Assembly (NCBI GenBank): GCA_029936935.1
Contig: JAPYRQ010000010.1
Location: 1 to 39,834 of the forward strand
Reading direction: 5' to 3'
Source: Dehalococcoidia bacterium
Lineage (GTDB): Bacteria; Chloroflexota; Dehalococcoidia; Lucifugimonadales; UBA1127
Length of the DNA stretch: 39,834 bases
Below are positions 8,115 to 33,560 of the stretch, in pieces; within the stretch, counting starts at the first letter, position 1; every line of letters starts with the position of its first letter. Both the position numbers and the translations under genes were made by a program. A model generated the notes under the pieces. It saw only the letters and a list, made by a program, of their open reading frames with translations. It was not told the DNA's origin and made no database searches.

Positions 8115-8897
8115 ATGTCCCGTAGGGAAACCGCGCGCTGCGAGTGGGGCGAGCGCATGGCGGAGGACATCTTGAGGAGCATCGGTTTTGTGGAGGGCGT
8201 CAACTACTTCAAGCAGAGCCAGATTGAGGGAGGGAGTTCCAGACCTGATTTTGTGTTCATGCTGCCCGACGACCTAAAGCTGAACATGGATGTGAAATTC
8301 CCTTTGGACAACTACATGCGACACCTTGAGGCAGAGTCCGAGGCAGAAAAATCTCAGTTTCAAACGGCGTTCCTGCGTGATGTGAGAGGCCGAATATCAG
8401 AAATCACCAATCGTGAGTATATTAACCCGGAACAGGGAACGTTGGACTACGTCCTGCTTTTCATTCCCAATGAAAGCGTCTACTCCTTCATGCATGAAAA
8501 GGATCCTGACCTTTTGGATTTCGGACTGCGAAACAAAGTTGTATGCTGCGCGCCTTTGACCCTTTTCGCGGTACTGGCGATGGTCCGTCAGGCCGCCGAC
8601 AATTTTGCTCTGCAAAAGTCATCTGAACAAGTCGTTTCGCTATTCGGAAGATTCAATACTGAGTGGGAAAAATTCACGGATTCGATGGAACAAGTCGGCA
8701 AAAGGCTCGACTCGACCCAGAAGGCGTATGGGTTCTTAAGGGGTACCCGTCGCCGCGCTCTGGAACGACCACTGGGCCAAATTGAGACTATTCGGGCCGA
8801 GAGGGGCATTCCCGTCGCGCTTACTGTTGACGACCTTCCTGCACTGACTGCACAGGAGGCGGTCGATTCTTCTGATTCGGGCGATGACGAAGATTAG
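8115..8897 (+). CDS. RmuC-domain protein, N-terminally truncated
   Basis: RCEWGERMAEDILRSIGFVEGVNYFKQ..RPDFVFMLPDDLKLNMDVKFPLDNYMRHLEAESE..VLLFIPNESVYSFMHE.. The upstream coiled-coil is absent; an in-frame TGA (8112-8114) directly precedes ATG 8115. Confidence 0.8.
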   Translation: MSRRETARCEWGERMAEDILRSIGFVEGVNYFKQSQIEGGSSRPDFVFMLPDDLKLNMDVKFPLDNYMRHLEAESEAEKSQFQTAFLRDVRGRISEITNREYINPEQGTLDYVLLFIPNESVYSFMHEKDPDLLDFGLRNKVVCCAPLTLFAVLAMVRQAADNFALQKSSEQVVSLFGRFNTEWEKFTDSMEQVGKRLDSTQKAYGFLRGTRRRALERPLGQIETIRAERGIPVALTVDDLPALTAQEAVDSSDSGDDED

Positions 8898-32352: not shown

Positions 32353-32645
32353 GATGTTCCTCAACTGAAGATGCCGTGTATAGGCAACAGTATACCGCAC
32401 GCATGAACGAGCCATTGGAAAGGCGAAGATAGGCTCTGAAATTGGAATTGTTATTCTTATGAAATTTAAATGAAACACAATTGTTATACGATGAATTTCA
32501 AGTATATATCAAATATAAAACTCCATTAGCCATAAAGTGCGACGACAGAGCCAAATGATGAGTTTTAAAGACTGAAACCAATCAGCAGTCTATTTGCCCG
32601 AATCCATCGTATTATTCAATGGCATTCTTGATTCCGGAGGAGTGG

Positions 32646-33497
32646 ATGACCGATCGAACTCGATTTTTGGCGACGTTTCGCGGACTGGTTCTTGTTACAG
32701 GCGTCTTCGCGTTGCTGCTGATTGGGGTTGCTTGCAACGGCTCCACTGGTGAAGGCGAAACATCCACTGAAGCCCAGCCCAGCGGCGCATCCTCTCTTTC
32801 CCCCTCTGCTGCTGCCGGTACTACGGAGGGCACGCAGTTCATTGCAGAGAAGCCCACCGCTGTAGGGGCAATATCCGAGTCATCGATAGACAATGAAAAT
32901 TTACCTTTGGCGCTACGTGACACTGATACATTAACTTCGACTCAAATTGGATCGCCAGCAAAGTCTGAGCCTCTGACAACCTCATCGATCCAAACGGAGC
33001 CGATTGTACAGTCGAACACTGCAGTGGCTGCGCCCGTAGCTATAGCGGTACCTGCGCGGAAGATAGGCTACAAGGTAGGTGAGCAGGCTCCAGACTTCAC
33101 ATTGTTCTCCGTTGATGGGAAAATCCATACGATTTCAGATGCCACAGCGTCGGGAAAATCCGTGTTGTTGTACTTCTTTGCTTCCTGGTGACCCCACTGT
33201 AATGCCGAGTTTCGGCATCTACAAGCGCTCCACCCCAACTACAAAGACGACGTACTGCTTCTGGGTATAGATACGGACGCTTTTGAAAAGGCGGACTATT
33301 TGGCGCGCTGGGGGGCGAGTCGAGGCTTCTACTGGCCCCTGACCACCTTCGATCGCGAAGCCCTGGTGGCTTACAACGTACGTACGCAGTCGACCAAGAT
33401 CGGTATCGACCGCAACGGCGTCATCGTACTGCGAGAGGGCTATGGCACCAGCAGCGCTGGTACGTGGGTTGAATGGCTGGACATGCTGTCTGAGTGA
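32646..33497 (+). CDS. candidate selenocysteine-containing lipoprotein redoxin (TlpA/AhpC-like, UxxC active site); TGA at 33189-33191 read as Sec
   Basis: GGAGGAG RBS; lipobox LLLIGVAC; low-complexity linker; GYKVGEQAPDFTLFSVDGKIHTISDATASGKSVLLYFFASW-[TGA]-PHCNAEFRHLQALHPNYKDDVLLLGIDTDAFEKADYLARWGASRGFYWPLTTFDREALVAYNVRTQSTKIGIDRNGVIVLREGYGTSSAGTWVEWLDMLSE*. Same frame on both sides of the TGA, no indel needed. Confidence 0.72.
33198..33223 (+). promoter_or_regulatory. candidate bacterial SECIS element
   Basis: TGTA-ATGCCG-AGTTT-CGGCAT-C-TACA: 6-bp upper stem (7 bp if A-T closes to a GTT loop), 4-bp lower stem with bulged C33219; apical loop begins 16 nt after the TGA with G at loop position 2. 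Confidence 0.6.
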
Positions 33498-33527
33498 ACA
33501 TAGCTGGGTACGGCTGAAATGGATGTT

Positions 33528-33560
33528 AAACGGCTCCTTCAAACGAAGGAGCCGTTTATT
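33528..33560 (+). terminator. intrinsic terminator
   Basis: AAACGGCTCCTTC-AAAC-GAAGGAGCCGTTT-ATTT, perfect 13-bp stem. Confidence 0.85.

Follow-up and report, generated by a model that had tools for sequence, protein, structure and literature searches.

A predicted selenocysteine-containing redoxin lipoprotein of a Dehalococcoidia bacterium and its family, in which the cis-proline is mostly replaced

Introduction

Prx-like and redoxin selenoproteins with a UxxC active site are already known (PMC13188914, PMC1088965, PMC2398784). Table 1 of PMC13188914 lists Prx-like thiol:disulfide oxidoreductase selenoproteins (PF00578, UxxC) and a redoxin-family selenoprotein (PF08534, UxxC).

Here we analysed a stretch of 39,834 nucleotides from a Dehalococcoidia bacterium (contig JAPYRQ010000010.1 of assembly GCA_029936935.1, positions 1 to 39,834), hereafter the window. 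A preliminary description of the window, made from its sequence alone, pointed to a lipoprotein redoxin with an in-frame UGA in the active site and proposed that this codon specifies selenocysteine (Sec, U). We found that the gene belongs to a family of more than a hundred members with TGA at the same codon and a conserved hairpin directly after it.

Results

An in-frame UGA occupies the first active-site position in a redoxin domain

The features of the locus are as follows, all on the plus strand.

32636..32640, +: RBS-like GGAGG, read from the sequence; the ATG at 32646 begins 5 nt further on
32646..33497, +: predicted selenoprotein gene from its ATG to the TGA stop, encoding 283 residues of which residue 182 is Sec (frame reading and Pfam)
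32646..32735, +: signal peptide with lipobox-like LIGVAC, predicted lipidation at Cys 30 (translation, lipobox pattern)
32736..33065, +: low-complexity linker rich in Ser, Thr, Pro and Ala (translation)
33066..33494, +: ResA/TlpA-like redoxin domain, Pfam AhpC-TSA/Redoxin (Pfam, ResA alignment, model, fold matches)
33189..33191, +: in-frame UGA read as Sec, active site UPHC (frame and homolog alignment)
33198..33223, +: SECIS hairpin in which 33202-33208 pair with 33212-33218 as the core stem and GUU 33209-33211 forms the apical loop
33390..33392, +: TCG codon, Ser 249 at the cis-Pro position, TQ-S-TK (alignment with ResA and the family)
33527..33558, +: intrinsic-terminator-like hairpin of 14 pairs with a T tail (pattern search)

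The frame at 32646-33497 (MTDRTRF...LLIGVACNGS...YFFASW-TGA-PHCNAEF...LSE-TGA) is interrupted only by the TGA at 33189-33191, which falls at the first active-site position (FFASW-U-PHC), and it closes with the TGA at 33495-33497. Standard ORF calling ends the gene at 33191. When the internal TGA is read as a residue, the protein scores 54.5 bits against Pfam AhpC-TSA (cut-off 26) and 52.3 bits against Redoxin (cut-off 26.6), with both matches extending across the TGA, and the gene holds one redoxin domain. These results confirm the coordinates of the preliminary description, in which the same frame ran on past the TGA and completed the domain. The RBS and terminator that it assigned to the gene were located as well; matches to the terminator pattern arise about once per shuffled region, and 14 pairs are nevertheless long. 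The lipobox-like LIGVAC is likewise present and ends at Cys 30, with Gly at -3 as a pattern match, and a crude lipobox pattern is matched by 95 of the 125 Sec relatives described below. Lipidation and an extracytoplasmic location are predicted from this motif, and the surface anchoring that had been put forward keeps the same standing.

TGA is shared by many homologs and exchanges with Cys codons

A class-wide search returned some 20 homologs, each interrupted by one TGA, most of them bearing a U-P-x-C motif in the same place, and an order-wide profile search gave well over 100 TGA matches. The domains taken from the fetched loci comprise 125 with TGA and 17 with Cys at the same column; 15 of these Cys rows are members of the family, and the other two are TlpA-like proteins of the outgroup. 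As the preliminary description had placed it, the TGA therefore occupies the position of the first active-site Cys, and the site is TGA or Cys throughout, with the exception of one TGG (Trp) copy.

These homologs bear on the possibility that a Cys codon became TGA in a pseudogene or through a sequencing error. The codon lies one base away from TGC and TGT, and the contig belongs to a draft genome. However, TGA is found in the 125 homologous domains, which come from many genera, an agreement far above chance, the region 3' of it remains in frame and conserved, and conservation of the SECIS hairpin exceeds synonymous expectation (see below). The recurrence of the TGA in many independent genomes excludes a sequencing error, and we regard decay or error as exceedingly improbable.

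A genome-wide reassignment of UGA, for instance to Trp or Gly, instead of local recoding to Sec would agree with the TGG found at the site in one relative (L235), but it hardly deserves more credence. Within family domains TGA occurs only at the active-site codon (any further in-frame TGA was seen in 3 of 142 domain envelopes, two of which, the window's and one in L056, are terminal stops), and Cys is the alternative residue in homologs. Moreover, TGA serves as the terminal stop of the window gene and its relatives, and both selABCD and the SECIS hairpin are present.

The TGG copy of L235 (minus strand) is one member of a tandem pair and keeps a SECIS-like hairpin; it may reflect the recent loss of a Sec site or a fault of the assembly. 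The L149 protein has Cys and no Sec at the active site, and a TGA occurs close to its end. A quick family tree, built without bootstrap, requires 4-6 Sec/Cys label changes. Cys members of the family occur in Chloroflexi MAGs and in DPANN/Caldarchaeum archaea, among others, and the L068 domain is identical to that of G330, a genome of the window's order. The DPANN and Caldarchaeum Cys members (L069-L075) also lack the cis-Pro, which suggests gene transfer.

The genome encodes the selenocysteine machinery

A search for selA, selB, selD and tRNA-Sec, which the preliminary description had named as a check, recovered all of them in the window's own genome (2.05 Mb, 94.6% complete): SelA at 555 bits, SelB at 341 bits (cut-off 242), SelD at 380 bits, which likewise contains a UGA (HCAG-U-AAK), and a tRNA-Sec with anticodon UCA. 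These genes, the UGA-bearing SelD and a second selenoprotein candidate indicate that the organism very probably uses selenocysteine. The second candidate (genome G000, contig C90:10098-10493 minus; L148:3055-3599 minus) reads FYRGYF-U-GICRTQ, is SelL/Prx-like, has a Pro as its cis-Pro residue, and carries a 7-pair hairpin, GCAGCTC-GTG-GAGCTGC, downstream of its TGA.

SelA scored above cut-off in most of the checked genomes with Sec homologs. Those Sec genomes in which it did not are incomplete (G022, 81%; G001, 54%; G329, 83%; G424, 60%), and the SelA match of the Sec genome G297 covers a fragment and stays below cut-off. The near-complete genomes G157 (97%) and G330 (91%) have no SelA and carry Cys at the site, and G301, the sister of G330, has both Sec and SelA. 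The four f104 genomes also carry Cys at the site, and SelA is still present in three of them; loss of Sec at this site therefore needs no loss of the machinery.

The distance from the family gene to selA is about 8-16 kb in several genomes. We considered a functional linkage, but the intervening stretch holds housekeeping genes, rpsB-tsf among them (two f97 loci, identified by eye), and the proximity looks positional.

A SECIS hairpin is conserved across the family

The preliminary description had invoked a SECIS hairpin and had not shown one. Such a hairpin is present 11-27 nt downstream of the UGA, with a core stem that begins at 11 nt and pairs ATGCCGA (33202-33208) with TCGGCAT (33212-33218) around a GTT loop. 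Its minimum free energy of -12 kcal/mol (z -2.65 vs shuffles) is only moderately unusual when taken alone, and its folding energy against synonymous recoding was not significant (P 0.19). A comparison of 20 family sequences revealed compensatory changes on both sides for five of the six pairs, and the covariation score was reached by none of 500 shuffles. Among 120 distinct sequences, 597 of the 720 possible pairs form vs 400±11 (maximum 437) with synonymous codons, a z of about 17 that is inflated by relatedness among the sequences. This recoding control preserves the protein sequence, and the pairing is therefore not accounted for by conservation of the protein. The apical-loop G is kept in 119 of the 120 sequences, and Cys rows form 2.1 of 6 pairs vs 5.0 in Sec rows. 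Support for the SECIS thus lies in the family, not in the window hairpin alone.

Tandem genes are frequent, and two-Sec fusions occur in two taxonomic families

Tandem genes are common, as 33 of the 91 fetched loci contain two or more Sec domains. Both G297 and G298, which belong to the window's genus, have a single open frame that spans two domains and two UGAs, uninterrupted by a stop. The same arrangement is found in G306, which belongs to another family and in which each of the two domains has the other as its nearest row; the fusion therefore probably arose more than once. In G239, the two halves are located at contig ends. Two-domain, two-UGA frames were observed in L146 (plus strand, UGAs at 2767 and 3529), L147 (plus strand, UGAs at 8317 and 9061) and L206 (minus strand), which represent two taxonomic families and in which a Pro/Thr-rich linker joins the domains.

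A His-rich gene beside the fused gene of G297 and G298 was considered and rejected, as no counterpart adjoins the window gene in its ORF list. Comparison of gene neighbourhoods revealed no conserved neighbours and no consistent functional link.

The domain is ResA-like and usually without a cis-proline

An AlphaFold model built from a 20-row family alignment reached a pLDDT of 91, and its best match among solved structures is ResA (E 2.7e-13), with weaker matches to the peroxiredoxin AhpE. The fold and the CxxC-type site of the ResA/TlpA group are present, and the cis-Pro is absent from 120 of the 125 Sec members, the column, usually preceded by Gln, being Ser in 91, Ala in 21, Met in 7, Pro in 5 and Thr in 1. 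Alignment with ResA and across the family thus bears out the Ser at this position that had been read from the window, and the prevailing non-Pro residue supports the suggestion of a distinct subfamily. Since family Cys members likewise have no Pro there, the trait belongs to the family independently of selenium. Ser or Ala in place of the cis-Pro suggests altered substrate docking or redox tuning.

We consider it rather probable that the window protein acts as a disulfide reductase. The fold and the active-site motif behind the earlier designation as a thiol oxidoreductase are both there, and from these we infer the activity. A peroxidase-like selenoenzyme is the first alternative to weigh, given the Pfam AhpC-TSA and Redoxin matches, the AhpE-like folds and the fact that Sec favours peroxide chemistry. 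Nevertheless, we find it unlikely, as ResA-type proteins are the best fit and the family has UPxC with Ser/Ala, unlike the Thr/SerxxCys and Arg at the cis-Pro position of peroxiredoxins (PMC2757866). Loss of the cis-Pro could instead allow U and C to bind a metal or an Fe-S cluster, in keeping with the non-Pro column of nearly all Sec members and with human TRX1, in which the same replacements permit a [2Fe-2S] cluster (PMC6210436). This reading seems to us quite unlikely, since no metal-handling gene is consistently adjacent and ResA-type reductases are the best matches in both fold and sequence.

In 20 genomes, the window's included, no match above cut-off was obtained for CcdA/DsbD (DsbD_TM/CcdA profile), VKOR or DsbB; control searches with these profiles gave matches in known genomes, and diverged partners could still escape them. 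The usual reducing or oxidising partner is thus missing from these searches of the 20 genomes, a point against the proposed reading of the protein. The bacteria without such matches encode many thioredoxin-like lipoproteins.

Discussion

Given the codon, the decoding genes, the conservation of the hairpin, homology with TGA- and Cys-bearing relatives and the predicted fold, we hold with high confidence that the window gene encodes a selenoprotein in which UGA 33189 is decoded as Sec, as first proposed. SelB and tRNA-Sec would insert Sec at this codon with the SECIS hairpin as guide. In the mature protein, a flexible linker would join a lipid anchor to a single thioredoxin-fold domain of the ResA/TlpA type that bears UPHC, and the protein would be held at the membrane outside the cytoplasm. 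The selenolate would be the attacking nucleophile and the second Cys would resolve, the most likely role being reduction of disulfides or oxidised thiols outside the membrane. Lipidation, location, selenolate chemistry and substrate are all predicted here from the motifs and the fold.

More broadly, the family might represent lineage-wide extracytoplasmic selenoenzymes that do without a cis-Pro and without the known membrane relays (CcdA/DsbD, DsbB, VKOR), for example through metal binding or an unknown donor, with the sites of tandem or fused two-Sec forms passing electrons to each other; we view this picture as doubtful.

Wherever UGA is taken as a stop, more than 100 family genes would be annotated as truncated lipoproteins. 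The family also provides natural Sec/Cys exchanges, one of them between a genome that has Sec and SelA and its sister that has Cys and lacks SelA, together with naturally varied residues in place of the cis-Pro and with two-Sec fusions. It is therefore good material on why selenium serves outside the membrane and how a selenol stays reduced there.

The window family resembles the ResA/TlpA/CcmG-type extracytoplasmic thiol-disulfide oxidoreductases in fold, domain length, active-site position and predicted membrane tethering, and ResA is the best PDB match of the window protein in both sequence and structure. In contrast to them, the family has Sec for Cys and Ser/Ala for the cis-Pro, and CcdA did not score above cut-off. 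No NCBIfam model was reached by the window protein; the best was ResA NF002854, at 54.5 bits against a curated cut-off of 170. NF041054 (WAxxUGC_long) and NF053656 (TUGYCR) are likewise redoxin-like with Sec at the first active-site position, and the window protein is a member of neither (17.1 vs cut-off 300 and 14.5 vs cut-off 100, respectively). The pneumococcal surface lipoprotein thioredoxins Etrx1 and Etrx2, which are among the fold matches, have a lipid-anchored ResA-like domain outside the membrane, as is predicted for the window family. They are Cys based and their partner genes are known in pneumococcus, whereas the window family has Sec and its partner genes were not found.

A search of the open-access literature, which leaves most subscription journals outside, found no paper on the window family. 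The Prx-like and redoxin selenoproteins of PMC13188914 share with it the Pfam domains, UxxC and a bacterial SECIS directly after the UGA. What sets the window family apart from them, by description only, is the lipobox-like motif, the linker, the non-Pro residue at the cis-Pro position, the frequent tandems and the fused two-Sec forms. It may therefore be a lineage-specific branch of one of the families listed there, and what is novel is a variant within the known UxxC Prx-like/redoxin selenoproteins, not a new class.
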